Shown here in pieces: positions 9,678 through 42,620 of a stretch of 44,010 nt of DNA. The translations under genes and the position numbers were made by a program. Numbering within the stretch: the stretch's first letter is position 1; each line of letters starts with the position of its first letter. The notes below the pieces were generated by a model. That model made no database searches. It saw nothing but the letters and a program-made list of their open reading frames with translations, and was not told the DNA's origin. The DNA is from a virus. Where the stretch lies: positions 6,696 to 50,705 of the IMG/VR virus record IMGVR_UViG_3300030380_003863, one strand, 5' to 3'.

Positions 9678-10147
9678 TACTCTAAATCACCTCCTCCAAG
9701 TCTAGTGGTCATGACTCCTCTTTCATTATCCATTCTTCTTGTTTCAGGATGATTTCTAGTATGGAATGTTCCTCTCATGTCTGCGAATGCTGCTTCATCC
9801 AAAGCCTCCTCTATCTCTCTCTCACTCACAATCCCTGCATCCATGAGTGCTCTTACTAAACTTGCTCTTTCTATCTCATCCATGACTTGTCTAACATTAT
9901 GTTGAGGAGATATGAATGAGTTTGCCTTTGTGCCTTCGTGCATAGCCTCTCCAAAATCTCCTACCTCAAATTGACCTGCACTTGTAGGAAGTCCTATTGT
10001 TTTTTCATGCGTATGAATCATAGGAATCTTTGAACCATGAAAGGCTAAAACCGCATTTGGGTCTGTATATTTAGTAGGAGGATCAATAGGTCTTGGTATT
10101 CTAAAATCCACATCTTTAGCAATAGCCCAAGCCTTTTCAAAAATCAT
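9677..10147 (-). CDS. Unknown virion-block protein with FE-x-AW-x-x-AKD N-terminus
   Basis: This is an unknown 156-residue protein. It starts MIFEKAWAIAKDVDFRIP, the same opening as the 86-residue basic protein at 7812-8072. A Pro-rich stretch follows (RPIDPPTKYTDP), then an acidic helical part (RQVMDEIERASLVRALMDAG, EREIEEALDEAAF) and a basic, His-containing end (TFHTRNHPETRRMDNERG). There is no membrane segment. It starts at a TAATG overlap with the giant hub gene and has GAGGTGA before it. Position suggests a tail-tip or virion-associated role, but the sequence alone does not show function. Confidence 0.65.
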   Translation of the reverse strand: MIFEKAWAIAKDVDFRIPRPIDPPTKYTDPNAVLAFHGSKIPMIHTHEKTIGLPTSAGQFEVGDFGEAMHEGTKANSFISPQHNVRQVMDEIERASLVRALMDAGIVSEREIEEALDEAAFADMRGTFHTRNHPETRRMDNERGVMTTRLGGGDLE

Positions 10148-24651: not shown

Positions 24652-26258
24652 CAGATTCCTCTCCCATATCCACCTGATCTTGATCGTGATTTGAATACAC
24701 GCTGAACTTCTTTGCTAACTGCCTTTGCAATATCTTGAGGATTGCCATTCGCACCACTAACCGTGATATTGACCGTGTTTTCATTTAGTGTGTTATCGTT
24801 GGTTATGTTTGTAGTGCCTCCACCACCCATTCCTTCTCCTTCTATTGCAACAGGTATGCTCCTGCCATCGGGAAGTGGCACTACTGCCTCAGTACCATGT
24901 AGTATAGCAGGATAACCACTTGTTGGTCCTGTTGCTACTCCTCCACCAGAACCGCTAAATATTCCGCCAATAGATCCTCCAATAGAACCTACGAAATCAG
25001 ATACGCCTCCTACTACATCTCCAAAGTCAGGAATCATGTCAAATATTTCTTGTACGGCATCAAGAAAGCCTTCAAAGATACCTACTATTCCATCAATCGC
25101 AAATTGAATTGCATCCCCTGCTCCGTCTAACATAGTAGAGAAAGCATTGCCAACTGCCTCAATTGGAGGTGTTATGAACTCAAATATTGCATCCTTAATG
25201 CCTACCATTTTATTTATTATCCAATCAACTTTGTTGCCCGCTACTTCGGCCAATGCGTCAAATGGATTCTCTGCCGTGAATATGTAAAGGAGATCGTTTA
25301 GGAATGTATTCATCCAGGAAAGAAGTCCTGTAAAGATACTAATGATGCCTGTTATAACCCCCTCTATTAAGCCTAAGAATGTCATGAAAGCACCTCCTGC
25401 ACCCGCATCTCCTAAAGCCCCGCCAATCTCCACCGCAAGATAAACGACTAACTCAATCAATTTGCCGAATATGACACCTGCTACTTCAAACAACAGACCG
25501 AGAGTTTCTATGAATAGCACTATGAAATCAACTATTCCACTATCAACTAAGAAACTTCCAAACTTGTTGAATGCAGAGGTTAGACTAGATGTCACACTAC
25601 CCCCTGTTATACCTAAATCTTCAAACGCCTTTTGGAATGAGCCAAATATTGCACTTATACCTGCCCAAATGCCCATGAATACCGCAAGCAATGCATGGAA
25701 TACTCCGTGATCGTACATTGCTTCAACCACACTCAACCATGTTGATATCCACCAAGTAAGTATTTCCACCATCAAAGTGACTACTGATACGAAGAATGTT
25801 CCAAACTCGGTAAGAACCGACTTCGCCATTTCAATAGCTGGTCCGAAATCAAAAGCCATTATCTGTTGAATGACTCCTATGAGGATGTCTTTCAAACCGC
25901 TTAAAGCGGATACCAATTCGCCTGTACCACCACCTGCCGAACCAACAGATGAAGTGAGATATGCAAAGACGGATATTACTGTGAATAATATTCCAATCAT
26001 CCCTAGAAAGGACATTCTTATACCATCAACTGTCTTCTCCATAATTCCTAAAGGAACTAACAGACCCTTCATCGGAGCGAGAACTGCTCCAATTCCTGTT
26101 TTTAGTTTAAGCCATAGATTGTAAAACGGGCCAAGAAGTTTATTGAAGATTACAACTTTAGTATAGGATTTTGTCATGGCTTTGCCAAAGTCTTTGTCCA
26201 AAGCCATACCTGCGGCAGAAACTTGTTTTGTCCAATCCGCTAAGTTTGTATCAGCCAT
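24651..26258 (-). CDS. Tail tape measure protein
   Basis: The protein has 535 residues. It begins with an amphipathic helical part (ADWTKQVSAAGMALDKDFGK), followed by at least five long hydrophobic helices (for example MSFLGMIGILFTVISVFAYL, FFVSVVTLMVEILTWWIST and FIVLFIETLGLLFEVAGVIF). It then has a Gly-rich stretch ending in GVATGPTSGYPAILHGTEAV and VPLPDGRSIPV. The GPT...G-x-EAVVPL signature is common near the end of tape measure proteins. At about 0.15 nm per residue it predicts a tail near 80 nm. It starts inside the end of the chaperone frameshift gene and is followed by the distal-tail gene, as in most siphoviruses. The hydrophobic helices may act in membrane passage of DNA. Confidence 0.88.
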   Translation of the reverse strand: MADTNLADWTKQVSAAGMALDKDFGKAMTKSYTKVVIFNKLLGPFYNLWLKLKTGIGAVLAPMKGLLVPLGIMEKTVDGIRMSFLGMIGILFTVISVFAYLTSSVGSAGGGTGELVSALSGLKDILIGVIQQIMAFDFGPAIEMAKSVLTEFGTFFVSVVTLMVEILTWWISTWLSVVEAMYDHGVFHALLAVFMGIWAGISAIFGSFQKAFEDLGITGGSVTSSLTSAFNKFGSFLVDSGIVDFIVLFIETLGLLFEVAGVIFGKLIELVVYLAVEIGGALGDAGAGGAFMTFLGLIEGVITGIISIFTGLLSWMNTFLNDLLYIFTAENPFDALAEVAGNKVDWIINKMVGIKDAIFEFITPPIEAVGNAFSTMLDGAGDAIQFAIDGIVGIFEGFLDAVQEIFDMIPDFGDVVGGVSDFVGSIGGSIGGIFSGSGGGVATGPTSGYPAILHGTEAVVPLPDGRSIPVAIEGEGMGGGGTTNITNDNTLNENTVNITVSGANGNPQDIAKAVSKEVQRVFKSRSRSGGYGRGI

Positions 26259-27396: not shown

Positions 27397-29568
27397 TCAT
27401 AATATGAAATATGGATTGTTTTCTGTCACCTTCATATGGCGAACCACCAACTCAACATCAGCGAATATTGGCCCCTTGTCTGATGGTATCTGATGATCCG
27501 CTTTTGTGATGGTGTAATCCTCCAAAGTTATAGTAGCGGTTTGCCGAGTAGTTGCACTACCTGCTTTGGTCATTGTGAATGTAATGTCGTTTGTGTTCTG
27601 GTGATGTCTTCGAGTTCTGACTTCATCCCATAGTCTATCATCCTCAACTAAAGCCTTGAATGAGAATGTGTATTCCCTCACTCCTTCTGTGATATCCAAT
27701 GGAGTCTGCGTTGCTCCGTGTTGAACCTGATCTGTATCGGATGTTGCACCTTCAAAGCCTCTAATGTACCATCTAGCCGTGTTAGTGTTTGCTAGTCCTA
27801 AACTAAACTCTGTTGCTCTAAGCACAGGTCTTCCAAATATCTGTATGCTTATATCTTGGAATAGATATGGTTTTTCGCCATCAACCGCTATACCGCTAAC
27901 TTTTCTGTTCGCTGCGGTGTTTGCAGTATTGTCAAACATTCGGTGCGGGGAGAACATATCGCCTGTATCAGTATAGTGTCTTGCAGCTTGATACTCACAA
28001 CTAATCTTCAATTCTCCCTCAGTATCTGCTGATATATTTGCAGATCCAACCTTGCAACCGCTATACAATCTAAGCAATTGTTCTCCACCAGGAGTAGTAT
28101 CATTATTCCTAAACGATTGTTCAACGGTGAAAGACGGTACAACATTGTGTCCAAAGAGTGTATGTGTAACTCCATTTTGAAGTTCTTTTGTTGATGCTAC
28201 AATGTTTGGACTACCTTTTGATGCATCAGATGTGTATCTCAATCTATCAACGCCACAAGAAGCAACTGCGTGAGCAAAAGTGAATGGTTCTTCAACATGA
28301 ACGTGATCACCGCCAACTGCAATTACTCTCCTAATTTCATGCTTGAATATTGTAGGTGGTGTTCCATCTTGACCTGGAATCTGATGTGTGTCTTTATCAA
28401 TAATCTGAATGTAATCTCCCACCGAGAACATTGCACGAACTGTCGCCCCCACATCCACTCTTGTATCTCCAATGGATACTGCTCCTGCAAGTGGTGGCAT
28501 AAGGACAACACATTTGTTAGCCGTAAGAGCCAATGCAGCCGCACCAGAATCAATATCTGCTATGCCTTGAACATCGTTGGAAGATATTGATGCGTATGAT
28601 GCGTATTTCGTAGTGCCACTATCATTCACTTTGAGAACACCTGCGGCAGTTCCGCTTGTTACGGAAAAAACAGTCTTTGCCGTTAAAGTAATGTCATCGC
28701 TACTTGTTGATGCTACCTTAGCACCAATCATGAAGTTAGTTCCTGTTGTAGTTGAGAGGCTATCTAAGCCCGTAAGAACAGTTCCTGATGATGCTATTGC
28801 AGTATAATCACCCGCAGTTCCAGAAGCCGATTGTAATTCTGCTCTACCCGTTACGGTTGCATCATCGCCTAAATTGAATAATTTCTCAGAAATAGTGTTA
28901 CTTCCGCTTGCTAAAGTGGCTAGAGAGCCGTTGCCCTTTGCGGTATGGCCTCCTAATGCGTACTTCAACCACCTCATACTGTGAGCATTTACCTCTATTG
29001 AACCCCCTTCTAAGGTTTCACGCCCACTTGTAATTACATTGACATCCCTGCCCATGCCAATAACGTGTTGTTGCCTAACATCAATTGATGGCTCAGGCAG
29101 AGCAAACTCGTTCAGTAATCCTAGAAATTGATCGGTTCGAACTTTTTGACCATTGGTCGCATCACTCATAGATGAATCAAAAGTTGGGCAACGATATGCC
29201 TCTATCACTAGACTATCTGATGAACCTGCCGCTTGGCTTGCAGATGTAGCCAAAGCGGGTTGAACGGTAATTGTTCCAGCAGTTGTGTCATTTGCCGTTA
29301 TGTAGTATGTTCTTCGAGTTGCGGCATAATCATCGGAAGCAAAATTACTGCCTCCTGTAATCTTAACAACACAACCAACCAATATATTATCAGGGATTTC
29401 AACATCAGTTCCTGATCCTGTATGCCAATAAGCTCCTGTTCCTACTGTAATTAAACTCGTACTATTGGTGCTTGAAGTGAGTGTCCAGGTAGCACCATCA
29501 CACCGTAGCCCTGTTTCTTTACCGAATGATACTTCGGCCAAATCTCCTTTGTATAGTGCATTCGCCAT
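27397..29568 (-). CDS. Major tail tube-like protein (723 aa)
   Basis: The N-terminus (ANALYKGDLAEVSFGKETGL) and the core (LNEFALPEPSIDVRQQHVIG, then GMGRDVNVITSGRETLEGGS) with SIEVNAHSMRWLKYALGG resemble tail tube proteins. The C-terminal beta domain (REYTFSFKALVEDDRLWDEV, then TFTMTKAGS and VELVVRHMKVTENNPYFIL) agrees. It stands at the right place, two genes before the chaperone pair. At 723 residues it is several times longer than usual tube subunits, because of Ser/Thr/Ala-rich beta insertions near residues 30-120 and 215-420, which may decorate the tail surface. I see no strong ribosome binding site before the ATG. A tail sheath is less likely, as no contractile baseplate genes are seen. 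Confidence 0.68.
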   Translation of the reverse strand: MANALYKGDLAEVSFGKETGLRCDGATWTLTSSTNSTSLITVGTGAYWHTGSGTDVEIPDNILVGCVVKITGGSNFASDDYAATRRTYYITANDTTAGTITVQPALATSASQAAGSSDSLVIEAYRCPTFDSSMSDATNGQKVRTDQFLGLLNEFALPEPSIDVRQQHVIGMGRDVNVITSGRETLEGGSIEVNAHSMRWLKYALGGHTAKGNGSLATLASGSNTISEKLFNLGDDATVTGRAELQSASGTAGDYTAIASSGTVLTGLDSLSTTTGTNFMIGAKVASTSSDDITLTAKTVFSVTSGTAAGVLKVNDSGTTKYASYASISSNDVQGIADIDSGAAALALTANKCVVLMPPLAGAVSIGDTRVDVGATVRAMFSVGDYIQIIDKDTHQIPGQDGTPPTIFKHEIRRVIAVGGDHVHVEEPFTFAHAVASCGVDRLRYTSDASKGSPNIVASTKELQNGVTHTLFGHNVVPSFTVEQSFRNNDTTPGGEQLLRLYSGCKVGSANISADTEGELKISCEYQAARHYTDTGDMFSPHRMFDNTANTAANRKVSGIAVDGEKPYLFQDISIQIFGRPVLRATEFSLGLANTNTARWYIRGFEGATSDTDQVQHGATQTPLDITEGVREYTFSFKALVEDDRLWDEVRTRRHHQNTNDITFTMTKAGSATTRQTATITLEDYTITKADHQIPSDKGPIFADVELVVRHMKVTENNPYFIL

Positions 29569-29612: not shown

Positions 29613-29894
29613 TCACTCAGAATCCTTATCTGCGTCTTTTGACTTGGTTTTGGACTTGGTTTCCTCTTTAGGAGGCGTTATAATGGCTTGAGATTGCCTT
29701 TGTGCTCTTATTTTCTGAGCCTCTGCAACTTCTGCTAGATCTCTTGAAAGTTGAGCAGTTCTCTGATTGATGTAATTAACGATGTCTTGAGTACAAGCCT
29801 GGTGTAGCCTAAATAAAACCAATCGATCTGCTGATTGTTCTTGTAAGGCTAGTAGTGCTTGTTCTGGGGTAAGAGTCACTTCTTCGGAGGTCAT
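29613..29894 (-). CDS. Small helical protein with charged tail
   Basis: This is an unknown 93-residue protein. The N-terminal two thirds is helical and may form a coiled coil (LTPEQALLALQEQSADRLVL, then NYINQRTAQLSRDLAEVAEA). The last 25 residues are Lys/Glu/Asp-rich and probably unstructured (KEETKSKTKSKDADKDSE). It lies between the methyltransferase and tail tube genes. GAGGA precedes the ATG. The sequence gives no firm function; a small assembly factor is possible. Confidence 0.65.
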   Translation of the reverse strand: MTSEEVTLTPEQALLALQEQSADRLVLFRLHQACTQDIVNYINQRTAQLSRDLAEVAEAQKIRAQRQSQAIITPPKEETKSKTKSKDADKDSE

Positions 29895-29944: not shown

Positions 29945-30514
29945 TTATTCTGTCCAATTCCAACCACCTATCTCTGTTACGATAGAACCATATTTCTCTT
30001 GTATTAGATTCTTGTAGCCTTCAATCCCTATTATGTTTCCATCCTCATCAAAATCTGTCGTAAGCCATGTGTCAAACCACCCCACATCCCAAGTTTTATC
30101 GGGATTCCAGGTGTGAATATCTGCATGGATAATTGTAAATCTATCATCCTTAGCACAGTCACTCCATACCAAATCTATGACATCTTGCTCACTTTCAACT
30201 ACTGTTACGCTAGTCACATCATCTGACTCAAGCAATGGGATGTGGATCACACCTAAACCAAGACCTGCAATTAGGATATCACCAGACATACGAGGCATAA
30301 GCCATTGATGCTCATCATATTCTTGATCTGTGTCTTGCATGATATTGAGCCAAGATTCACCGAACTTTCTATACAGTACAGTATAATCTCCCTCTGCTAT
30401 GTTTCTATAATTGACATAGTTCAACCAAGATGGTTCTCCGGTAGTGGTGGTGCATCGCTCAACCTTGTAGTCGCCACTCTCCCCATCGGGTATCCCTGTC
30501 ACTTCCCATCTCAT
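29945..30514 (-). CDS. SAM-dependent methyltransferase-like protein
   Basis: The protein has 189 residues with a Rossmann-type core: DILIAGLGLGVIHIPLLES (motif I with GLGLG), then SVTVVESEQDVIDLVW with the acidic residue after strand 2, and TIIHADIHTW (Asp after strand 3). The pattern is closest to the spermidine synthase-like class I methyltransferases seen in many marine phages. It overlaps the upstream adhesin-like gene by ATGA. Its place among tail genes suggests that it modifies a virion or host component, but the substrate cannot be read from the sequence. The N-terminal 60 residues are unlike the core and may be substrate-specific. Confidence 0.75.
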   Translation of the reverse strand: MRWEVTGIPDGESGDYKVERCTTTTGEPSWLNYVNYRNIAEGDYTVLYRKFGESWLNIMQDTDQEYDEHQWLMPRMSGDILIAGLGLGVIHIPLLESDDVTSVTVVESEQDVIDLVWSDCAKDDRFTIIHADIHTWNPDKTWDVGWFDTWLTTDFDEDGNIIGIEGYKNLIQEKYGSIVTEIGGWNWTE

Positions 30515-31113
30515 GGTATCATCACCCTCGGTGTTATTGTTGGAGATGCCGGAGTAGTGCCATTGGAATTGATAGCCTCACAATTCACAGACCAGCTGAC
30601 TCCATCACCTGATACTTGTAACATCAAATAACCTCTCCCTCCTGAATTGTGTGTGATATTTGCGAAAACTCCAATATGCGTGGAAGTACAGTCTTGTGCA
30701 GTAGAACCACTACCACTCTTGGCAGTACCACTTACTGCACCAAAGGTGTCTGACACTACCGAAGGAGTTCCTGCACCCCATCCGAAGGAAGTTGCTCCTG
30801 TCGCTCTGCAATATCCGAAGGTTCTGAATTGAAGAACACCGCTATTGCCATTCAAAGCATTAGAGTAAGAAGGGCCAAAAATCAATTCAATATCTCCTGT
30901 ACCATTAGAAAAGGTGCTACCTGAGTTTGCAGCTAGCACCCCTGGTCCTGTGGGGCAATCAACTATTACGGCATCGTCAAAGTTGCCACTAGACGAGGTA
31001 GCCACACTAACATTCGTTGGTGCAGAACTACCCCCACCGCCACCGCCACCGCCACCGCTACCGGATTGCCCTTGTTGTGCGATTGTTCCGACTAGAGATG
31101 TGTAAATAGACAT
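30511..31113 (-). CDS. Gly-linker adhesin-like virion protein (200 aa)
   Basis: A short N-terminal segment (MSIYTSLVGTIAQQ) is followed by a linker with nine consecutive Gly residues (about 20-28) and then a beta-rich domain (FDDAVIVDCPTGPG, GDIELIFGPSYSNAL, RGYLMLQVSGDGVSWSVNC). The arrangement of a small anchor, flexible linker and compact beta domain is typical of short fibres or decoration proteins. It follows the giant fibre gene by 4 bases with a GGGTGA site, so it may be a fibre tip, an adhesin or a fibre chaperone. The linker DNA is a 6-base tandem repeat. I do not recognise the family. Confidence 0.65.
   Translation of the reverse strand: MSIYTSLVGTIAQQGQSGSGGGGGGGGGSSAPTNVSVATSSSGNFDDAVIVDCPTGPGVLAANSGSTFSNGTGDIELIFGPSYSNALNGNSGVLQFRTFGYCRATGATSFGWGAGTPSVVSDTFGAVSGTAKSGSGSTAQDCTSTHIGVFANITHNSGGRGYLMLQVSGDGVSWSVNCEAINSNGTTPASPTITPRVMIP
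31032..31062 (-). repeat. Six-base tandem repeat coding for poly-Gly
   Basis: About four near-perfect units of ACCGCC (GGCGGT on the coding strand) encode the Gly run of the 200-residue protein. Loss or gain of units would keep the reading frame and change only the linker length. Confidence 0.8.
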
Positions 31114-31117
31114 GACT

Positions 31118-34100
31118 TCACCCTAGAACTATCCACTCGCTGTCGCTTACTGCAATGCAGGTCTTCGCCTCGTATCTCGTGGTAATCGTTAGATTGGTAG
31201 TTGAACCGTTCATAGTGTCCGACCCGTCTGCTGAGATTGTTACTGTTCCTGTTGTGTTGCTCATTATGATGTACTGCTCGCCTCTGTGTGGAGAAGCAGG
31301 TAGGTTGAACGTCATTGCACTTGTCGCTAATAGATACAGGCCAGCATGGTCGGCTCTAGTCATAGTTAGGTTGCTACTGAATGTCCTCAACTGCCCTGCC
31401 TTCGCAGCGACACCTGCTGCGGGCGTATCTCCATGTGCGTTGGGATCTGAGCCGATAGATAGGAAGTCCGTATGCGAGTCTTTTCTGAGTGCGGAGATCA
31501 TCATGTATCCATCTGCGTTACCGGAAGTCACATCAGTCGTCTTGACCTTTATCTTAGCATAGTCCCTCAAATCCTCAACATCAGAGCCTGTGGGACTGTC
31601 ATCCATAGCCATGAACTTGAGTTGTCCTATGTTGTCATCGTCTGCCTCGCTTGAGTGCTTTCTCATAAGGGCTAGAGTAGGCCCAGAGGTATTTGTTGTA
31701 TCATCATTGACGAAAACGAACTGACCCAATCCCTTTGTCTTGAACGCTAATGCTACGTTATCGTTGGGTCCTGTGGCCGCGAATCCTGGCCCTACTGAAG
31801 TAAGTGCATTGCCTTGATTTGTTCCCACTACATCACTACCAAACAAGGTATTGACGGTGGTGTTGTTGGCTACTGCGTTATGCACCTCTATGTAAGAATC
31901 GGCATTAGCGGTCTTCTCAAAGATTAACATCTCATTGCTAGAGTCATCAAGAATACCATGAGCATCATCAATTATGATGTTTTGACTGTTAGTATCTAAG
32001 TTCCCTCCGATTGTGATTCCTGCATTGAAAGTGGCAGCTCCCGCTGCTGAACCATCTAAAATGAGGGCATTGACATTGGAGTTGTTGTCTTTGACCATGA
32101 AATACATATCTGCATCATTTACAACTGCTTTAATCTTGAAATCACCGCCATCATGTGCAAGGTTTCCATAAGTCGTTCCAGCATCTTTGAGTCTTATATC
32201 CGCACCATCGGCATCAAGAGATATATCTCCCGAAGAATCTATTGTGAAGTCACCGACAACGAGTGTATCAAGGCTCGATATAGTCAAATCCCCACTTGAG
32301 TATGTGACATCCGATAGATCGTTGAGTGCAGAAGCACCACCACCTCCTGCATTTGCATCCACATATGCCTTGATGGATTGCTGAGTTGCTAGAGCAGTAT
32401 CGGAGTCGGAAGCCATGTTATCCTCATTTAGGATTGTGGTGACTCTACTGTTAGCACCGCCCAATCTGACACCGCTATCGCTTATGTCCAAGCGTGATGA
32501 ACCACCTGTTTCGAATGTCTGTGTATCTGTGCCGAATGCTATTGAGTTGTTCGTATCGCCCGAATGCCTAATCTCACCAGGGATTGTTAGATTGCCACTA
32601 AATATTGCCTCACCTGCATTAGATGCGTCAAATCGCAAGAAGTCGGTAGTGACACCACCATCAATCCCTCTGAGATAGAGGTCTTTGTCGTCAGTTGTGT
32701 TCTGCAAGACAATATCGCCTGAAGAAATCATGGCGATACGGAAGTATTCTGTTCCTGCTGATTTGAATCTCCAGGTAGGGCTACCCGCATCAAGGGATAT
32801 GTCACCTGATCCATCAATAGTGAAATTGCCCACAACATCAAGCTCTGGTGTTGAGTCTAAGTTGAATTGGAATCTTGTAGTCCCTGCGTCTTTGAAATAC
32901 ACTTGACTTCCATCTGCATCTAATGTGATATCTCCTCCGACATCAAACTCCAAGTTGCTTGATGCAACTATTTTGTCTAAACTGCTAATTGTCAAATCGC
33001 CATTTGAATAAGATACATCAGATAAACCATCAAGATCAGAAGCACCACCACTTGCTCCTGATACCTCTGCATCCACATACGCTTTGATAGACTGTTGAGT
33101 TGCCAAAGCAGTAGCAGAATCAGAAGCCATGTTGTCTTCATCTAAGATAGCGGTCATGGTTGCCGCACTAGAGTTGGTAGCACCAATGCTCAATCCGACT
33201 GTTGATACGCTAGACCATCTCTTTGAATCATTACCCAAATCGATATCATTGCTAGTCAAAGGTCTGAGTATGCCGTCAGAAAGCCTAATTTGATTCGTAT
33301 TGTCTATATGAAAATCAATGTGATTATCGTTAGCGAAGGTGATGTAGGCATCTGATGCTCCATATCCTAACTTCAAGGAGGAGTTGAGAACGGAGGTTAT
33401 TCCTGTCTGTGCCGCAGTTATTGCTACATCATTCGCATTTGCAGTTATTCCTGTTCCTCCAACTACATTCAATGTAGCAGATCCACTCGTAGCTCCTCCT
33501 GTTAGCCCATCCCCTGCTACTACGGCAGTTATGTCGCCTGTGTTTGTTGTGTAATTGAACGATTCTATCCTATCGTTAATCGCTTTAGCCGTCATCAATT
33601 GAGTATCTGAATCAGCAAATGATTCTGATGATAGAAGGATAGAACCTGCGGCTAATTCAGATACAGTCAAACCGCCTACATTGAGGGTATCTCCACTAAG
33701 ACTGATTCCCGTTCCTGCGACTAAATTGGTATCATCGCTAATATCTATTTGACCGAGTGTAATCGCCTGGCTTGATATGCTAAGGTAATCGTGACTAGAA
33801 GTAACCAATGTTACATCCGTTGAGTTATCCGTACCTGCTGCATCAACACCGAGGTTGCTTCTTGCAGTTGCCGCGTTAGCCAAGTCGGACAAATTGCTAG
33901 ACTTGGCTAGTTTAGTTCCTATGCTTGTAGCGATAGTAGTTGAGAAGGATGCATCATCTCCAAGAGCTGCGGCCAACTCATTCAATGTGTTCAATGCTCC
34001 AGGTGCAGAATCAACAATTCCCGCAACTTCCGCATCCACATATGCCTTGATTGACTGTTGCGATGCAGCAGCGGTGGCACTATTGGAACTCATATTGTCC

Positions 34101-37100
34101 TGATCGAGCAAAGTCAATTGCGTGTTGGTATCTGTTGCGGCTATTGTTACCGAACCACCGGATTCAGTTATTGTTACATTACTACCTGCCGTGAATGCAA
34201 GAGTTTCGCTTGATCCTAATGTGTTGCCCCCCGCAGTTACTGTTCTAAATGTGTTAGTGTTAGTATCAGTTGATGCTATTGTTACTGCTCCACCTGACTC
34301 TGTTATAGTTACATTAGAACCAGCAGTAAAGGCTAGTGTTTCACTTGAACCAAGAGTATTGCCTCCCGCAGTTACTGTTCTAAATGTATTAGTATCTGCG
34401 GTCATATCATCTACAACTAAATCAATAGTGCCATCACCATCTTGATATGTTGCACTAATTCTAGTTTCGGTGTTGCCACCAAACATAGCCCCGACTATAT
34501 CTTGAACCTGCTCTGTTGATAGTTGAGTATTAGTATCAGTAGCAGCGAGAGTCAAAGTTCCTGCGGCATCATCATAAGTCTTAGTGATGTTAGATCCTGC
34601 CGTGATTACCCCTGCTACAAAGTCTTCAACCTGTTCTTGCGATAATTGCGTATCGGAAAGAGAAATAGTACCGCTACTAGAAGGAATTGTAAGGTTGCTA
34701 ATTACATTGCCATCACTACCAACGAAAGATAGAGTTGCCCCACTTGATGCTGCTACTCCTGTTGTGAATCTAGGATTGTTTGATGTACCTGCCGTCAATG
34801 AAACATTGTGAGCAGATAGCACTATCCCATCGGTGGAAGTAGATACGAATCCTGCCGCAGTAAGTTTGCCTGTCGTTGTATCATCAGCATCGTTCTTCAA
34901 GAAAGCATCATCCACATTGAAAGTAGTGCCACTTAATGAGATGTTAGTACCTGCTGAATACTCGGTGTTAGTATCGGTGGATGCAAATGTGATCGTGTCA
35001 GAACTTGCATTCGTTGTAATGGTAACATTTGACCCTCCGGCAAAGGTTAGCGTATCTGCGGCAGCATCGGCTACAACATCAGATTGACCACTAACTGAGA
35101 TAGTTTTGAAAGCCTCTCCTGCCCCACCGGATGCAGTAGTGTCAATGGAATCCTGCAAGTTATCAAGGGTCATGTACTTCCAGGAGGAAGCAGACTCATC
35201 CCAAAGCAGAATCTTATCATCAGTAGCATCCGTGCTTTCATTCAACTCAGACAAGTTTGCAGGGTCGTCTAACTTGAGGCCACTTGCCTCTTGAGCCAAA
35301 CCATTACCTGCCGCAACGCTGAAAGTGGTGGAGGATAGGGCTATACCGCTACCTGCTGAATATTGAGTGTTGGTGTCGGTTGATGCGATAGTCACCGCAC
35401 CGCCACTCTCTGTAATGGTGACATTACTACCTGCCGTAAATGCAAGCGTTTCACCACTTGCCAATGTATTTCCGCCAGCAGTAACCGATCTAACGGCAGT
35501 AATGTATGAACCGAGATCACTAATTTGTGACTCCGTAATTGATAGTGCTGCTTGATGCTGAGTTACGCTTCCCTCAGATATTCTTCCATTGGCAAAAGTT
35601 CCGCTTGTAATCTTCGAAGTTGCCAAAGAGGGTATGTCTGATGCAGATAAACCACCGTCTAGTATGTTTATCTCCGCTAATGATGCAGTTATGCCTAGAT
35701 TCGTAAGGGCGTTTCCTTGTTGTGTTGAGTTCAATCCCTGGTTGCTAACATCAACTCTCAACCTGTTGCCCAATGATGTTGCGGTTGTTGTTGAGAATGA
35801 CGCATCATCTCCAAGAGCTGCAGCGAGTTCGTTTAGAGTATTCAATGCACCAGGAGCAGAATCAACAAGACCCGATACTTCTGCATCAACATATGCTTTG
35901 ATAGATTGCTGAGAGGCGGCCGCAGTAGCACTATTGGAAGCAAAGTTGTCCTCATCAAGAAGGGACAATTGAGTATTCGTGTCTGTGGATGCTATTGTTA
36001 CTGCACCTCCACTCTCCGTTATCGTCACATTAGATCCCGCAGTAAAGGCAAGAGTTTCAGTTGAAGCAAGAGTGTTGCCACCTGCGGTTATGGTTCTAGG
36101 AGTCATGTCATCCACTACCAAATCAATAGTGCCGTCACCATCCTCATAGGTAGCAGATATTCTCGTTTCGGTATTTCCAGAGAACATTCCGCCTACTATG
36201 TCTTGAACCTGTTCGGTGGAGAGTTGTGTATTAGTGTCGGTGGAAGCAAGAGTCAGCGTTCCTGCCGCGTCATCATATGTCTTGGTTATGTTAGAACCTG
36301 CTACGATTACACCCGCTACGAAGTCCTCAACCTGCTCTTGCGATAGTTGAGTGTTGGTATCTGTGGATGCAATGGTAACGGTATCGCTAGATGCATTAGT
36401 CGTAAGTGTCACATTAGAACCCGCTGCAAATGTTAGCGTATCGGTTGTTCCATCTGCAACTACATCGCTTTGCCCAGATACTGATACGGTGCTGAAAGCG
36501 TTCTGATTGTTCTCTCCACCTGCACCTGCGGCAATCCAGGTAAATCCACCACTAGCCTGATCATAACTCAAAATGTAGTTATCAACAGGGGAGTTTGTTA
36601 CATTGAGGTGCGATTCATCAACTGCACCGTCTTTCAATTCAGAACTATCAACTGCATTTGCATCAATCTGCCCTGCGGCAACTGAGTCAAGAGTAGCCAA
36701 TGCACCAAGAGCCGTGCCGTTCAATGTAATAGCATCTGCTTCCACCGTACCATCAAAGTAAGCATTCTTGAATTGTAGCGATGCCGTTCCAAGATCTATG
36801 TCGTTATTCGTCACGGGTTGTATCGCACCATTGATGAAATCAACCTGGTCCTCACCATCAACAACGACTCGTAAGACATCGGCACTACTTACTTGTGAGA
36901 ATCGCAATCCTAGATCGGTGACACCATGAAATGAGTAGGCAGGGAAGGTGTTTGAACCAGCACCAACTCGTACTATTTCTCCTACTTTCAAAATCTCATT
37001 AGACGAATCAAAGGTAAAATTAGCATCGCCCGCTATGTTCGTGCTATTGCCAAACGCTACTTGTGTATCGGCTATGCTTCCTCCAATACCTCCCGCAGCT

Positions 37101-40100
37101 CCTGTAATAGTTACTGCACCCCCGCTTTCTGTAATCGTGATATTGCTACCTGCGGTGAATGCAAGGGTTTCACCGTTGGCTAATGTATTGCCACCTGCGG
37201 TTATTGTTCTAGGAGCAGTTAAGTAGGATTGAAGATCACTTATCTGGGATTCTGTTATAGAAAGGGCGGCTTGGTGTTGAGTTACGCTTCCTTGAGATAT
37301 TCTAGCATTCGCAAATGTACCAGATGTTATTTTGCTTGTTCCTAAACTAGGTATGTCGGATGCGGATAATCCGCCATCAAGAATATTGATTTCTGCTAAG
37401 GATGCAGTAATGCCCAAGTTGGTCAGACCTTGTGCTTGTTGTGTGCTATTGAGGGATTGATTGTCATCAATTCTCAATCTGTTGCCCAAAGAGGTAGCAG
37501 TTGTTGTTGAGAAACTAGCATCATCGTTTAGAGCCGCAGCCAACTCATTCAGAGTATCCAGGGCGGCAGGAGCAGAATCAACTATGGATGCGGTTTTACT
37601 GTCTATGTATGCCTTGATTGATTGTTGTGTTGCTAAGTTGGTAGCCGAGTTAGAGGCCATGTTGTCTTCATCCAATACAGGAACAACGAAGTCTATGTTG
37701 CCATCAGTATCATCATAACTTACAGAGATGAATGTTTCAGTACCATCAAGCATACCTCCAACAAAATCTTCCACTTGCTCTTGTGTTAGTTGAGTGTTAG
37801 TATCTGTTGATGCGATTGTTAGCGTTCCTGCTGCATCATCGTAAGTAGCAGTAACATTTGTTCCTGCGGTGATTACTCCTGCTACGAAATCCTCCACTTG
37901 CTCTTGTGTTAGTTGAGTGTTAGTATCGGTAGAAGAAAGCGTTAGTGTTCCTGCCGTATCGTCATAAGTAGCGGTAACATTTGTACCGCCTACAATTAGA
38001 CCATTAACAAAATCTTCGACTTGTTCTTGAGTTAGTTGCGTATCTGTATTAGTGGTAAAGGTTAGATTGCTTTGCATATAACTCTGCAATACAGATGTAT
38101 CCATTCTTTTGAGATTACCTCCATCACTTATGACAAACTCATCACCAGAAGCAAGCCCGCTTGTTAGAGCCGTTTGCCCTGTGATATCTTCTATTACAAA
38201 GTTGGATGACCCCGATGTAGCAAAGTTTTGAGCTGCGATGTAATCAAACACGGCATTGCCCGTTACCAAATCTCCCTCGCCATCGGCAACACCGCCCGAT
38301 CCATCAGTAGCAACGCCCTTTACTGCTGCAGCCCCTAACCCCAAGTTTGTTCGAGCCGTTCCTGCATTGGCTAAATCTGAAAGATTGCTCGCCTTTGCAA
38401 GTTTAGTTCCTATGCTTGTGGTAATGGTTGTTGAGAAACTAGCATCATCTCCCAATGCTGCCGCTAACTCATTCAATGTGTTCAATGCACCAGGGGCTGA
38501 ATCCACCAATCCTGCTACTTCTGCATCAACATACGCTTTGATGGATTGTTGGCTTGCCGCCGCAGTAGCACTATTTGATGACATATCATCCTGATCGAGC
38601 AGAGTCAATTGCGTGTTAGTGTCTGTTGAAACAAAGTCTAGTTTTCCATTGGTGTCATCATATGTAACTGCAATATTTGTTTCAGTATTACCAGAAACCA
38701 TCGCTCCGATTATGTCCTGGACTTGTTCAGTTGTTAGTTGAGTATTCGTATCCGTTGAGGCAAGAGTTAGAGTACCTGCGGCATCATCATATGTCTTCGT
38801 TATGTTACTGCCCGCTACCACTAAACTAGCCACGATATCTTCTATTTCTTCTTGCGTCTTCCCGCTAGATGAAATCGTCACCGCACCTCCCGATTCAGAG
38901 ATAGTGACATTTGTTCCTGCGGTAAAGGCAAGAGTTTCGCTATTTGCTAGGGTGTTACCTCCTGCGGTAACAGATCTAGGAGCAGTAATGTATGAACCAA
39001 GATCGCTAATTTGTGATTCAGTTATTGACAATGATGCTTGATGTTGTGTGATGTTTGATGCGGCAATCCGTGCATCTGCAAAAGTACCGGATGTTATCTT
39101 TGAAGTTGCTAGATTGGGTATGTTTGACGCACTTAGGTTTGCACTAATTGTATCTCCCGATAATGCGAGTCCTGATCCTACGGATAGATTAGTATCATCA
39201 CTAATGTCTATCGTACCCAATGTGATTGCTTGATTGGATATTGAAAGGTAATCATGATTGTCAGTAACGAGAGTGACATCAGTTGAATTGTCAGTTCCTG
39301 CTGCATCTACGCCTAGATTGCTTCTTGCAGTTGCGGCATTGGCTAAATCGGATAGGTTACTTGCCTTTGCAAGTTTAGTTCCGATGTTAGTGGCAATGGT
39401 CGTGGAAAAAGAAGCATCATCGTTTATTGCTGCAGCTAATTCATTCAAGGTGTCTAACGCACCAGGGGCAGAATCAACTAACGCAGAAACCTCTGAATCA
39501 ACATAGGCTTTGATGGATTGTTGTGATGCCGCATGAGTAGCGGAATTAGATGCCATGTTGTCTTCATCTTTCAGATCAAGATTCAATGTAGCCGCACCGC
39601 TTGTTGCCCCACCAGATAGCCCTGTTCCTGCTACTACTGATGTGATATCTCCTGTGTTTGTAGTGTAGCCATACGAGAGTATCTTATCCTCAATTGCCGC
39701 CGATGTCATCAAAGATGTATCATTATTTGCAAAAGATTCACTACTGATTTGCAGACTGTCTGCTGCTAATTCAGATACTGTAATCCCGCTAACATTCAAT
39801 GTAACTGTTCCACTTGCACCTCCACCGGACAACCCTGTTCCTGCGGTTACTCCTGTGATATCGCCTGTATCTGTTGTATATCCATATGAAAGAATCTTAT
39901 CCTCAATTGCTGCCGAAGTCATCAAGGAAGTATCATTGTCAGTAAATGATTCTGCACTCGTTTGAATACTGCTACCTGCAAACTCAGAGATGGTTAAACC
40001 ACCTACATTCAGAGTAACTGCACCCTCTGTTGCACTTCCTGTTATTCCCGTTCCGGCAGTTATGCTTGAAACTATACCGGAAACACCTGATAGTGATCCT

Positions 40101-40762
40101 CCTGTGATGCTAACATTGTCTGATGCTTGAGTAGCCATAGTGCCTAAACCAAGCGATGCTCTTGCCGTTGCTCCGCTTTCGGCTACCCATGTACCAGGAG
40201 AAGAACCATCTCCTACAATGAATACTCCGTCAGAGGGCACTAGATTGGCCAAAGCCGTCAAATCACCATCAAGTGTTTGATATACATTAGAGCCAACAAC
40301 TGAACCATCTGCCGGATTTACAACAGGGTCGTCTGCTCCTGCTACCAAACTGAATGTGATTACCTCAACCTGGATGGTGTATCTGAATAGTTTCTTAGAG
40401 CGATCTGAAAGGTCGGTCCTAGTCTTGTAAATCAAACGGTCAAAGTTAGTGTTGTCGCCTTTTCTGAATGCCTGTACGATTCTTCTAACCTCATTACGCA
40501 TCTCAGACAGTCTTTCTCGACTCTGTACTGTTCTGCAATCTATGGTGATATTAACGTGTTCATTAACGAAATCATAAACAAGTTCTGGTTGAGCCTCGTT
40601 ATGTGCCGTTTCAAATATACGGATGACATCGGTATCAAGTAGCCTAACTCTTTTTGCATCTCCCTTATCCACATCTGCAATATCCTCTATGGATGGTGCA
40701 GGTGGCTTAGACCAATTTGTTGCGAGAATATCCCGTAACGCACCTATTGCATCTTTAGCCAT
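31118..40762 (-). CDS. Giant tail fibre (3214 aa) with tail-terminator-like N-terminus
   Basis: Residues 1-155 form an alpha/beta domain (IGALRDILATNW, PELVYDFVNEHVNITIDCRT, RLSEMRNEVRRIVQAFRKGD, KKLFRYTIQVEVITFS). It lies in the slot where siphoviruses encode the tail terminator. From about 160 to 2600 the protein is built of fibre repeats: (D/E)(D/N)MASNSAT with QQSIKAYVDAEV (seven copies), LNTLNELAAALGDDASFSTT (five), LAFTAGSNVTITESGGAVTI (six or more) and QLTQEQVEDFV (about eight). Residues 2600-3140 hold other fibre repeats (GDITLDADGSQVYFKDAG), and the end (AMTFNLPASPHRGEQYIIMS to SEWIVLG) is a fibre tip common in marine phages. It starts after a strong GGAGGTG site and overlaps the 88-residue gene by 8 bases. 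It is clearly a fibre; the terminator reading of the N-terminus is inference from position and pattern. Confidence 0.85.
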   Translation of the reverse strand: MAKDAIGALRDILATNWSKPPAPSIEDIADVDKGDAKRVRLLDTDVIRIFETAHNEAQPELVYDFVNEHVNITIDCRTVQSRERLSEMRNEVRRIVQAFRKGDNTNFDRLIYKTRTDLSDRSKKLFRYTIQVEVITFSLVAGADDPVVNPADGSVVGSNVYQTLDGDLTALANLVPSDGVFIVGDGSSPGTWVAESGATARASLGLGTMATQASDNVSITGGSLSGVSGIVSSITAGTGITGSATEGAVTLNVGGLTISEFAGSSIQTSAESFTDNDTSLMTSAAIEDKILSYGYTTDTGDITGVTAGTGLSGGGASGTVTLNVSGITVSELAADSLQISSESFANNDTSLMTSAAIEDKILSYGYTTNTGDITSVVAGTGLSGGATSGAATLNLDLKDEDNMASNSATHAASQQSIKAYVDSEVSALVDSAPGALDTLNELAAAINDDASFSTTIATNIGTKLAKASNLSDLANAATARSNLGVDAAGTDNSTDVTLVTDNHDYLSISNQAITLGTIDISDDTNLSVGSGLALSGDTISANLSASNIPNLATSKITSGTFADARIAASNITQHQASLSITESQISDLGSYITAPRSVTAGGNTLANSETLAFTAGTNVTISESGGAVTISSSGKTQEEIEDIVASLVVAGSNITKTYDDAAGTLTLASTDTNTQLTTEQVQDIIGAMVSGNTETNIAVTYDDTNGKLDFVSTDTNTQLTLLDQDDMSSNSATAAASQQSIKAYVDAEVAGLVDSAPGALNTLNELAAALGDDASFSTTITTSIGTKLAKASNLSDLANAGTARTNLGLGAAAVKGVATDGSGGVADGEGDLVTGNAVFDYIAAQNFATSGSSNFVIEDITGQTALTSGLASGDEFVISDGGNLKRMDTSVLQSYMQSNLTFTTNTDTQLTQEQVEDFVNGLIVGGTNVTATYDDTAGTLTLSSTDTNTQLTQEQVEDFVAGVITAGTNVTATYDDAAGTLTIASTDTNTQLTQEQVEDFVGGMLDGTETFISVSYDDTDGNIDFVVPVLDEDNMASNSATNLATQQSIKAYIDSKTASIVDSAPAALDTLNELAAALNDDASFSTTTATSLGNRLRIDDNQSLNSTQQAQGLTNLGITASLAEINILDGGLSASDIPSLGTSKITSGTFANARISQGSVTQHQAALSITESQISDLQSYLTAPRTITAGGNTLANGETLAFTAGSNITITESGGAVTITGAAGGIGGSIADTQVAFGNSTNIAGDANFTFDSSNEILKVGEIVRVGAGSNTFPAYSFHGVTDLGLRFSQVSSADVLRVVVDGEDQVDFINGAIQPVTNNDIDLGTASLQFKNAYFDGTVEADAITLNGTALGALATLDSVAAGQIDANAVDSSELKDGAVDESHLNVTNSPVDNYILSYDQASGGFTWIAAGAGGENNQNAFSTVSVSGQSDVVADGTTDTLTFAAGSNVTLTTNASSDTVTIASTDTNTQLSQEQVEDFVAGVIVAGSNITKTYDDAAGTLTLASTDTNTQLSTEQVQDIVGGMFSGNTETRISATYEDGDGTIDLVVDDMTPRTITAGGNTLASTETLAFTAGSNVTITESGGAVTIASTDTNTQLSLLDEDNFASNSATAAASQQSIKAYVDAEVSGLVDSAPGALNTLNELAAALGDDASFSTTTATSLGNRLRVDVSNQGLNSTQQGNALTNLGITASLAEINILDGGLSASDIPSLATSKITSGTFANGRISEGSVTQHQAALSITESQISDLGSYITAVRSVTAGGNTLASGETLAFTAGSNVTITESGGAVTIASTDTNTQYSAGSGIALSSTTFSVAAGNGLAQEASGLKLDDPANLSELNESTDATDDKILLWDESASSWKYMTLDNLQDSIDTTASGGAGEAFKTISVSGQSDVVADAAADTLTFAGGSNVTITTNASSDTITFASTDTNTEYSAGTNISLSGTTFNVDDAFLKNDADDTTTGKLTAAGFVSTSTDGIVLSAHNVSLTAGTSNNPRFTTGVAASSGATLSFVGSDGNVISNLTIPSSSGTISLSDTQLSQEQVEDFVAGVITAGSNITKTYDDAAGTLTLAATDTNTQLSTEQVQDIVGAMFGGNTETRISATYQDGDGTIDLVVDDMTADTNTFRTVTAGGNTLGSSETLAFTAGSNVTITESGGAVTIASTDTNTNTFRTVTAGGNTLGSSETLAFTAGSNVTITESGGSVTIAATDTNTQLTLLDQDNMSSNSATAAASQQSIKAYVDAEVAGIVDSAPGALNTLNELAAALGDDASFSTTIATSIGTKLAKSSNLSDLANAATARSNLGVDAAGTDNSTDVTLVTSSHDYLSISSQAITLGQIDISDDTNLVAGTGISLSGDTLNVGGLTVSELAAGSILLSSESFADSDTQLMTAKAINDRIESFNYTTNTGDITAVVAGDGLTGGATSGSATLNVVGGTGITANANDVAITAAQTGITSVLNSSLKLGYGASDAYITFANDNHIDFHIDNTNQIRLSDGILRPLTSNDIDLGNDSKRWSSVSTVGLSIGATNSSAATMTAILDEDNMASDSATALATQQSIKAYVDAEVSGASGGASDLDGLSDVSYSNGDLTISSLDKIVASSNLEFDVGGDITLDADGSQVYFKDAGTTRFQFNLDSTPELDVVGNFTIDGSGDISLDAGSPTWRFKSAGTEYFRIAMISSGDIVLQNTTDDKDLYLRGIDGGVTTDFLRFDASNAGEAIFSGNLTIPGEIRHSGDTNNSIAFGTDTQTFETGGSSRLDISDSGVRLGGANSRVTTILNEDNMASDSDTALATQQSIKAYVDANAGGGGASALNDLSDVTYSSGDLTISSLDTLVVGDFTIDSSGDISLDADGADIRLKDAGTTYGNLAHDGGDFKIKAVVNDADMYFMVKDNNSNVNALILDGSAAGAATFNAGITIGGNLDTNSQNIIIDDAHGILDDSSNEMLIFEKTANADSYIEVHNAVANNTTVNTLFGSDVVGTNQGNALTSVGPGFAATGPNDNVALAFKTKGLGQFVFVNDDTTNTSGPTLALMRKHSSEADDDNIGQLKFMAMDDSPTGSDVEDLRDYAKIKVKTTDVTSGNADGYMMISALRKDSHTDFLSIGSDPNAHGDTPAAGVAAKAGQLRTFSSNLTMTRADHAGLYLLATSAMTFNLPASPHRGEQYIIMSNTTGTVTISADGSDTMNGSTTNLTITTRYEAKTCIAVSDSEWIVLG
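32344..39570 (-). repeat. Array of coding repeats in the fibre gene
   Basis: Seven copies of the QQSIKAYVD unit are encoded near 32344-32430, 33061-33150, 34021-34110, 35872-35965, 37590-37680, 38511-38600 and 39490-39570. TESGG units lie near 34150, 34290, 35400, 36010, 37110 and 38890. The protein units are very similar, but the DNA copies differ at many third codon positions. Confidence 0.8.
34124..34395 (-). repeat. Tandem pair of near-identical 45-residue units
   Basis: Two adjacent units, each starting TNTFRTVTAGGNTLGSSETL and ending in TITESGG(A/S)VTI, differ at only 2 of about 45 residues. By hand alignment the DNA differs at about 26 of 129 bases, almost all silent. Confidence 0.75.
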
Positions 40763-41021
40763 TCATCAACACCTCCGAAAAATTGTCTTTTGCGGCCTTC
40801 AAAGCCACCCTGAAGGCATTATTTTCAATTTGTTTCATTACATTTGCTTCTATTTCTTCATCCGTGAAGCCAAGTCCGTCTGCGGTAGCCATTTGCCTTT
40901 CTTGAGATAGGAGCATCTTATACATGGCTGGCTCGTTTTGTTCAACGGCCTTCAAAGCCCTTGACACTTGCCTCTCTGCGTCTTGCAGGGATTTGAGATA
41001 CTTCACTAAATCTGAAACCAC
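40755..41021 (-). CDS. Small helical protein in the neck region
   Basis: This is an unknown 88-residue protein, almost wholly helical and charged (LVKYLKSLQDAERQVSRALK, then AMYKMLLSQERQMATADGLG and FTDEEIEANVMKQIEN). It starts with GTG three bases after the connector gene stop and ends 8 bases inside the fibre gene, so translation is probably coupled on both sides. Its slot, between connector and terminator, is where head-closure proteins are often encoded, but those are usually beta-rich, so I do not assign it. A small assembly factor is possible. Confidence 0.6.
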   Translation of the reverse strand: MVSDLVKYLKSLQDAERQVSRALKAVEQNEPAMYKMLLSQERQMATADGLGFTDEEIEANVMKQIENNAFRVALKAAKDNFSEVLMNG

Positions 41022-41024
41022 AGC

Positions 41025-42620
41025 TCAACCACCCATACCTGCGACTATTATTCCTTCTTGGTATGGGATTAGGATTCTCTTTACCTCTTCTTCTAACTTT
41101 TGAATCTTGGAAGGGAGATCCACATTCTGCGTACCTTCTGGAAACATAGCAGTATAATCGTCAGTCATCATGATGTCCAAAGCAACTAACTTGGTACAAG
41201 CATCTTCTATTGCCTTGTCAAGATATCTTTCGCCATAAATATAGGATAACTTGAGGCTATGATTCTCAAAGAATGGATATTGATTGTTGAACATGATTGC
41301 ACCATTGTCTTCCATTGACCACCAATCTTGTTGCCTCTGCTCATCGGTAGCATCGCTATCAAACCTAGTCTGATATACTTCGGTGCTTGCAGATATGTTT
41401 GCTACGAAATCAGATGTCAAGTCATCTGCAACTGTTATTGTATTGCCACTTCTAGTACATCTTGCTACTCGGATGGTAGCTCCTGTACCGTAGTAGTACA
41501 GACCATTTCCTTGAACAAACGCAGAGGCATCATCTAACACAAAACTACTACCTGATACAGATGAAACTGTGTCGTTAATGGTGTTTGATAATCCAAAAGC
41601 AAATGTGTTAAGATTAGTAACTGCTATTGTTGTATCTTCACCCTCATCAGTTGATCTCATACTACTGATTAGCACAACTCCATCGCCCTCATCGCTATTG
41701 GCAGTAGCCAAGAACTCATGACTGACATTGAGGGCTTTGCTATCTTCTGTCATAGTCCCTATTTGAATAGAGGTTTTTCCTGTTGCATCATCTTCATTGA
41801 TTAGATTGCCAATCTGACTTGCAATAGTCTTGACTCCGAAATCCTTCGCCCAGGTAGTAGCAGTACCGCCACTTGACAAAGTTGCAGTATGTGCTATGTT
41901 TGGACATAGGAATATTTTATCTGTATTGTTGAATAGATGAGGATCACGCACAGTTAATTCCACACGAGATGATGCTAACTCTCGATAGTGATCTCCTTGC
42001 CACACACCCATTCGCAATATCCTTTGGATTGAACGGTTTCTGAGATATACTGCTCCAACGTAGTCGGTATAGTATCTTCTGCGATATGGTTTGAATGTAG
42101 TAAAGTTTTGATATTCATCGGTGACAAGTCTTGGCCTCCATGACATTCTAGTAATTTTGTCAATGTAATCCTGCCTTCTTTGAATTAGTTGTTCAACTTG
42201 TGATTTGCTTATGCCTCTCTGCGAGGAGTTAGAAAGTATGGAACTAGGTTGAACATACGCACTATTGGCTTTGGTATATGACGTTCCAGGATTAGCTGCT
42301 TTGAGAACAACTCCTCCACTTGATCCTAATGATGCAATTCCTGTGAGAGTCAATGTGCTTCCCAATGCATCCACATCATCATAGACAGTAACCGAATCTC
42401 CACTTGCAAACCCCCATCTTCTGTAATCAGCCCCTGCTATTGGTATCTTGATTGTATCAACACCACTTTCGGTTGCCGTGCTTGTATCGGCAATGAGTTC
42501 TGTTGGTTTAGCATCAGGTAGTTGTAGGTATGATTCAACCTTTGCAACAGTAGTATATACTAATTCGGAAGGATAGAGAGGTTGGTCGGGTCTATGCCCT
42601 GGTGTGAATACTCGTGGCAT
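41025..42620 (-). CDS. Head-tail connector (adaptor)-like protein
   Basis: The protein has 531 residues. Helical segments at its start and end resemble gp6-type head-tail adaptors: YTTVAKVESYLQLPD (23-37), SQVEQLIQRRQDYIDKITRM (about 139-158) and, near the end, AIEDACTKLVALDIMMTDDY with KIQKLEEEVKRILIPY. Adaptors of this family are usually 100-150 residues. Here two large beta-rich insertions lie between the helices, including one with SGSSFVLDDASAF (about 347-359) like a module in the 2187-residue baseplate protein. Its position before the terminator slot fits. A GGGAGGATG site precedes the ATG. The call is by pattern and order. Confidence 0.55.
   Translation of the reverse strand: MPRVFTPGHRPDQPLYPSELVYTTVAKVESYLQLPDAKPTELIADTSTATESGVDTIKIPIAGADYRRWGFASGDSVTVYDDVDALGSTLTLTGIASLGSSGGVVLKAANPGTSYTKANSAYVQPSSILSNSSQRGISKSQVEQLIQRRQDYIDKITRMSWRPRLVTDEYQNFTTFKPYRRRYYTDYVGAVYLRNRSIQRILRMGVWQGDHYRELASSRVELTVRDPHLFNNTDKIFLCPNIAHTATLSSGGTATTWAKDFGVKTIASQIGNLINEDDATGKTSIQIGTMTEDSKALNVSHEFLATANSDEGDGVVLISSMRSTDEGEDTTIAVTNLNTFAFGLSNTINDTVSSVSGSSFVLDDASAFVQGNGLYYYGTGATIRVARCTRSGNTITVADDLTSDFVANISASTEVYQTRFDSDATDEQRQQDWWSMEDNGAIMFNNQYPFFENHSLKLSYIYGERYLDKAIEDACTKLVALDIMMTDDYTAMFPEGTQNVDLPSKIQKLEEEVKRILIPYQEGIIVAGMGG

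Follow-up and report, generated by a model that had tools for sequence, protein, structure and literature searches.

In HFTV1, the ring between the head-tail connector and the tail tube is a hexamer of gp29 (PMC12494034), a 157-residue protein annotated as an SPP1 gp17-like tail completion protein, with the connector gp26 before it and the tube gp35 after it. The N-terminal domain of the protein analyzed here resembles HFTV1 gp29, T5 p142, and lambda gpU (and SPP1 gp17, by the HFTV1 annotation) in fold, domain size, and place between connector and tube. The known terminator chains, however, carry no fibre, the longest among the best 50 fold matches per model having fewer than 290 residues.

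Fibres at the head-tail joint have been described as well. They include T4 wac, the gp40 spikes of XM1, and phi29 gp12 (as cited in PMC10491603), the gp82-gp81-gp80 assembly of A-1(L), with five trimers on a 15-subunit ring (PMC10966104), and the lactococcal NPS, for which a ring of 18 subunits with six trimers has been modelled (PMC6669499). In these accounts the neck fibres are separate proteins on a collar, the neck, or a portal-associated ring, whereas the fibre described here is part of the terminator chain, and we infer its position at the neck from the terminator domain and from known virion architecture. Adhesion modules mounted on a structural brick are likewise reported for the 936 phages, in the extended Dit, MTP-TpeX, and NPS; there the bricks are distal tail, tube, and neck passage proteins, while here the brick is the terminator (PMC6669499). 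Excerpts of the open-licence literature, among the matches listed, describe no terminator-fibre fusion, which does not establish its absence from print; the terminator and fibre parts were already known, and it is their combination that is new.

The window, i.e., the whole stretch of 44,010 nucleotides that was analyzed, spans positions 6696-50705 of a 50,705-base virus record. Reading its open frames, we found on the minus strand a single frame of 3,214 residues at 31118-40762, with an ATG at 40762 that is preceded by GGAGGTG, a ribosome-site-like stretch, and a start that overlaps the end of an upstream 88-aa ORF. An earlier sequence-only reading had described a giant fibre fused to a presumed terminator at residues 1-155, and the coordinates and the frame of this ORF were confirmed. 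Its placing of a terminator in the N-terminus also held, unlike the boundary: as the stand-alone versions described below stop at 143-145 residues, we set the domain end near residue 142. The protein can then be divided into a tail terminator domain (residues 1-142, 40337..40762, minus strand), assigned from AlphaFold2 models with a PDB fold search and from stand-alone relatives; a linker of about residues 143-160 (40283..40336, minus strand), with a V/I-N-P followed by a glycine in most of the sequences compared; and a modular tail-fibre region (residues 161-3214, 31118..40282, minus strand), recognized by PHROG families, PDB fibre chains, and repeated motifs. The linker is missing from the stand-alone versions.

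Two AlphaFold2 models of the N-terminus were made, both of moderate confidence. The first, of residues 1-155 built from 12 sequences, reached a mean pLDDT of 74.7 and a pTM of 0.70. Foldseek placed chain 9fkb_Pa of the HFTV1 tail on top for this model (E 5.2e-7), with tail terminators making up nearly all of the matches that followed; 2gjv and 4acv, whose titles are uninformative, are terminator crystals according to PMC11784142. Structural alignment of this model gave a Z of 15.0 with 9fkb_Pa (139 residues, 2.8 A), followed by T5 p142 (13.9), GTA (13.9), gpU (12.2), and T4 gp15 (10.9). The second model, of residues 1-330 from 38 sequences, had a mean pLDDT of 65.4 and a pTM of 0.41, with blocks of 68-91 in the terminator part, except one of 50. 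It again ranked 9fkb_Pa first (Z 15.2), and did not resolve the structure of residues from about 145 to 330, the linker included, where blocks were below 70. The comparison of the N-terminus with terminators, for which the sequence-only reading had named lambda gpU and SPP1 gp17, thus came out in favor of a terminator in both models, with the HFTV1 chain ahead of T5 p142 and gpU. Chain 9fkb_Pa is probably gp29 itself, since it has 156 residues and is aligned up to residue 157, against the 157 residues of gp29. By analogy, the domain of the window would form a terminator-type hexameric ring.

Sequence searches gave fainter signals. The N-terminal domain matched three PHROG families, phrog_19972 (0.0018, function unknown), phrog_347 (tail terminator, 0.029), and phrog_18109 (0.1, unknown), of which phrog_347 was not reported for the fusion protein at a limit of 0.01. 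Neither Pfam nor NCBIfam returned a match to the domain, and a PDB profile search returned chance hits only; the present analysis supplies a terminator call for this virus group. When the domain was searched by tblastn against 50,697 phage records, HCTV-1 gene 119 came first (E 2, with 25.5% identity over 85% of the query), at a lax limit at which 16 records matched; in ten of these the match, listed at E 3, fell within a Vibrio phage terminase gene. The stand-alone relative L024, used as a query, again had HCTV-1 on top (E 0.1), and as a single comparison the domain and gene 119 gave an E of 2e-7, with RT.SRERL and RKGD..FD stretches in common. A search of gene 119 against PDB sequences gave one hit that is not meaningful, an endonuclease at E 0.26. 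Not significant on its own in the whole collection, the HCTV-1 match becomes meaningful through gene position and fold. Since similarity to named terminators is weak, it is fold and gene position that carry the terminator case.

That position is the same in two of the Druskaviridae. HCTV-1 gene 119 (162 aa, about 25% identical over the domain) and HVTV-1 gene 127 (156 aa, likened to the domain by position and size only) occupy the same slot, but as stand-alone genes. Gene 119 precedes gene 121 with a single small gene in between, and the HCTV-16 counterpart of gene 121 is annotated as tail tube and is followed by the tail assembly chaperone and the tape measure; gene 127 lies directly before gene 128, which matches the tube of the window. 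Gene 119 is a weak homologue that occupies the terminator slot in a halovirus.

To place the fusion among its relatives, viral contigs were scanned with a profile, yielding 101 relatives, of which 80 were kept; 79 of these, the window, and five other loci made up the 85 sequences examined. A sequence was counted as fused when its frame continued at least about 119 residues past the domain. The frame crosses the same terminator-fibre junction in 31 of the 85, while the remaining 54 end after 143-145 residues (164 in HCTV-1). HCTV-1 aside, the stand-alone domains are 62-71% identical to that of the window, and in all 53 of these loci (the 54th stand-alone sequence being HCTV-1) a tail tube homologue starts 10-15 bases later. 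Relatives lacking the fibre encode this domain by itself, in the gene that immediately precedes the tail tube.

Taken together, the predicted fold and these stand-alone relatives make the N-terminal domain almost certainly a tail terminator. An N-terminal domain that merely resembles a terminator and anchors the fibre, with another protein acting as the real terminator, appears very improbable. According to PMC11784142, the folds of terminator and tail tube are related, which would leave room for such a resemblance, yet relatives carry the same domain as a stand-alone gene immediately before the tube, and the extra genes between fibre and tube in the window encode methyltransferase-like, glycine-run, and 93-aa proteins. 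The earlier statement that no separate terminator gene is seen was borne out in that a search of 13 records, mostly fragments, met the domain exactly once in every one of them; this search covered only the terminator family of the window and would miss other families, a limit that favors the anchor explanation.

In a tree of the 85 sequences, the 31 fused ones form one clade (support 100/100) that takes a single change, as in 100% of 200 bootstrap trees. Apart from the window itself and one contig from a Poseidoniales single cell, they carry 27 distinct IMG dataset numbers. A junction common to so many datasets argues against an assembly accident, and a lost stop codon or a chimeric assembly joining two genes is the least credible explanation of all, with nothing found in its favor and next to no chance of being right. 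Complete fusions have 3,214 (window), 3,212 (G001), 2,574 (G009), and 4,047 residues (G003), so the fibre attached to the terminator is about 2,400 to 3,900 residues long in this lineage; in the 85-sequence survey, the frame closes in 3 of the 31 and runs off the end of the DNA examined in 28. The simplest history is one in-frame fusion, with the fibre kept since. The ancestor of the clade would have gained the fibre by an extension of an ordinary terminator gene at its end. The tree was rooted on HCTV-1, by a long branch of unsure placement, and a single loss of the fibre by all other sequences would also fit the unrooted tree; gain is favored because the halovirus slot is also stand-alone.

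The two parts of the protein evolve very differently. Pairwise dN/dS of the terminator domain, usable only at dS between 0.15 and 1.5, had a median of 0.020 (highest 0.126) among the fused sequences (27 distinct, 26 usable of 351 pairs) and of 0.072 (highest 0.175) among the stand-alone ones (39 distinct, 76 usable of 741 pairs). Judged from these sequence comparisons, the domain is under strong purifying selection and its function is kept, while the fibre diverges greatly. The first 200 residues are 62-96% identical to those of four relatives. In the three more distant relatives, identity drops to about 20-40% over most blocks of the fibre, although some islands reach as much as 82%, a patchiness which suggests that fibre modules are shuffled. 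In the near twin G001, 11 of 17 blocks exceed 80% and four drop to 31-67%. The C-terminal part of the fibre is variable among relatives. A conserved receptor-binding domain at the fibre C-terminus was considered and rejected, the last 260 residues being matched in 3 of 18 records (the window included, one of them weakly).

The fibre region is, by sequence homology to known fibres, a modular tail fibre. It matched 13 PHROG families, the best being a "tail protein" (1.2e-73) and six being named "tail fiber protein" (down to 2.4e-42), and 11 of the 13 align to 4-6 stretches of it; no Pfam match above cut-offs was found. Residues 155-587 match 373 phage records, chiefly of Mycobacterium (285) and Gordonia (37) phages, the best 25 covering 16-34% of the query and often being named tail or fibre proteins, and the last 420 residues match four records, from Roseobacter and Pelagibacter phages. 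The motifs SAPGALxTLNEL, QSIKAYV, EQVxDxV, and TAGGNTL recur along the fibre; the unit SAPxALxTLxEL has 5 copies, and six other motifs have 3-8. Among PDB entries, matches included a fibre chain (1.4e-9) and orf22 (7e-19). The four matched molecules, gp4 "tail collar fibers" of 9d93 (9 chains; probably Bxb1, by the neighboring entry 9d94), orf22 (18), the gp92 short tail fibre (18), and "Fiber Upper" (12), all list multiples of three chains, which is suggestive of a fibre that seems to be trimeric. Fibres built of SAPxxLDTLNELAAALGDD units (9d93 gp4, the cyanophage PSS2 fibre, and 6v8i "Fiber Upper") have modules homologous to those of the window but, according to their annotation, are not fused to a terminator. 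As such modules occur in unfused fibre and tail proteins of other phages, they say nothing about where on the virion this fibre sits.

On the minus strand, a putative connector is followed by the 88-aa gene, the fusion, three genes, the tail tube, small genes, and the tape measure. The sequence-only reading had given the order as connector, small protein, this gene, tube, chaperone, and tape measure, and this stands except that the tube does not follow at once, the three genes lying in between. The putative head-tail connector (41025..42620, minus strand, 531 aa; phrog_17057 of unknown function, 3.5e-20) owes its presumed role to its place; the C-terminal part of its counterpart in locus L004 is 29% identical to an HCTV-1 ORF shortly before the HCTV-1 terminator candidate. 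The 88-aa protein between connector and terminator (40755..41021, minus strand) has an L004 counterpart with a 32% match on the Poseidoniales single-cell contig. Also in the neck cluster is a cysteine-rich gene (42636-42938), zinc-ribbon-like by eye; in HFTV1, gp28, a CCHC zinc finger gene, sits just before the terminator.

Directly after the fibre comes a gene for a 200-aa protein with a glycine run (30511..31113, minus strand). In the fused virus G017, a 650-aa protein is encoded at this place, and its C-terminal part shares 43% identity with the 200-aa product; L002 has there a protein of about 646 aa with a similar start, fn3 domains, and tail-fibre-J-like matches. The 200-aa product may be a partner or the tip of the fibre. 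The next gene between fibre and tube (29945..30514, minus strand) is methyltransferase-like (phrog_15480, 2.8e-17; no Pfam match above cut-off). It is present in the window, G001, and G017, L002 has an ORF with a similar start, and no such ORF was listed at this place in G003 or in the three stand-alone viruses compared. Elsewhere in the window, 1359-3365 encodes a 668-aa protein that by eye resembles a C5 DNA methyltransferase whose middle part is very long. No family match was found for the third gene between fibre and tube, of 93 aa (29613..29894, minus strand).

The 723-aa product of 27397..29568 (minus strand) is called the tail tube protein because its C-terminal third matches halovirus tail tube genes, residues 470-714 aligning with HCTV-5 127 and the HVTV-2 "tail tube" at 22-23% identity (E 7e-9 and 3e-7). 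Small genes follow at the tail assembly chaperone position, and the one that was scanned matched chaperone PHROGs only at E 0.23 and 0.42. Two frames there (26251-26978) overlap near 26610-26628, as in haloviruses, and for the overlapping chaperone frames of HCTV-16 a programmed -1 frameshift is annotated. The tape measure protein (24651..26258, minus strand) was identified by PHROG tape-measure families, the best at 1.6e-12.

Beyond the tape measure lie two giant genes of 2,238 and 2,187 aa (10147..23420, minus strand), which have homologues in relatives and, from this place, are presumed to form the tail tip; neither protein had a Pfam or PHROG match. The order tube, tape measure, giant tip genes is collinear in three stand-alone viruses (G018, G020, and G021) and four fused ones (the window, G001, G003, and G017), the giant genes being partly split into more ORFs in the stand-alone viruses. 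As the tip genes persist in both kinds of virus, the most natural reading of the fibre is as an addition, one that would join an existing tail-tip apparatus. A transfer of tail-tip genes to the neck was considered and rejected, these genes being kept in fused and stand-alone viruses. The SAP-type fibre motif was not seen in the three stand-alone modules, a weak test, as the count is also zero in the fused G017 fibre. For a 371-residue ORF (8242-9339), no homologue was listed in G018 or in the examined stretch of G003.

We consider it likely that the protein is, as a whole, a terminator with a fused giant fibre that stays uncleaved, sits at the neck, and was gained once as an addition. Six N-terminal domains would form a hexameric ring that seals the upper end of the tail tube, like HFTV1 gp29, lambda gpU, and T5 p142. 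Each subunit of this ring would bear a fibre of about 3,050 residues, and the fibres would thus project as whiskers, covalently anchored, from the neck, where head and tail join. The tunnel of HFTV1 measures 36 A (PMC12494034); chains of about 3,000 residues would hardly fit such a tunnel and would have to exit outward. In contractile tails, the terminator C-terminus is reported to extend beyond the tube as far as the sheath (PMC10491603, PMC12886913). When the T5 terminator was tagged at its C-terminus, however, aberrant polymers resulted, and the authors suggest that the tag may fold into the lumen (PMC11784142); an outward C-terminus is thus not guaranteed for the terminator fold.

An uncleaved neck fibre is about as probable as the reading as a whole. 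If instead the protein were a precursor whose linker is cut by a viral protease, the terminator would act alone and the freed fibre would be built into the tail tip or elsewhere. The linker of about 18 residues would offer a site, and a viral protease is likely to be at hand, as the L004 ORF before the capsid gene matches an HCTV-1 ORF at that place, where the HVTV-1 gene is annotated as prohead protease. Nevertheless, all 31 sequences of the fused clade keep terminator and fibre in one frame, and none has them as separate genes, although the fibre itself was reshuffled. We therefore regard cleavage as unlikely.

Six tethered chains have to be reconciled with an apparently trimeric fibre, a symmetry puzzle which the sequence-only reading had raised and which stands. 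Two trimers would be the simplest solution, although some parts of the fibre may be non-trimeric. This six-versus-three problem would disappear in a mixed ring, in which some subunits lack the fibre or free fibre chains are made from an internal start in numbers fitting trimers, and the lactococcal 936 phages are reported to extend their major tail proteins by programmed frameshift (PMC6669499). Yet of 25 distinct fused sequences only 2, the window not among them, have a slippery heptamer within codons 118-200, and a search around the start of the fibre (about codons 139-260, 25 sequences) revealed no conserved in-frame start with a ribosome-site-like stretch, although a few sequences have one. 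A mixed ring is thus improbable, and less credible than cleavage of a precursor. Returning to uncleaved chains, we lean, with some reserve, towards six of them from one hexamer joining as two trimeric or otherwise symmetry-breaking neck whiskers, a second adhesion device independent of the tip. The fibre would presumably bind the host, and its fast-changing modules might best be read as those of an accessory adhesin.

The host can be approached through the fused relative L113, a 106-kb contig of the Poseidoniales single-cell genome AG-422-I20 whose head module is collinear with that of L004. This contig suggests a Poseidoniales host, an adsorbed or stray virus being possible as well. Among phage records, the L004 MCP is closest to the Druskaviridae (32-33% to HVTV-1, HCTV-1, and HCTV-5), a family described as related to the magroviruses (PMC12999244; PMC10768690). 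Poseidoniales viruses are known from metagenomes, and a "tail fibre protein" is named for them without detail (PMC12999244); the word "terminator" is absent from PMC10768690 and PMC10160649. The fused clade probably infects the Poseidoniales, abundant archaea of the ocean.

In this clade, evolution wrote a fibre into the ring protein that closes the tail, apparently once, and all its sequences have retained the fusion, which can serve as a sequence marker for possibly neck-fibred Poseidoniales viruses. The uncleaved neck fibre predicts six tethered chains at the neck and raises a concrete six-against-three symmetry question. If this reading is true, these archaeal viruses would carry an adhesion device at the head end, built covalently into the tail, with outer modules that change freely.
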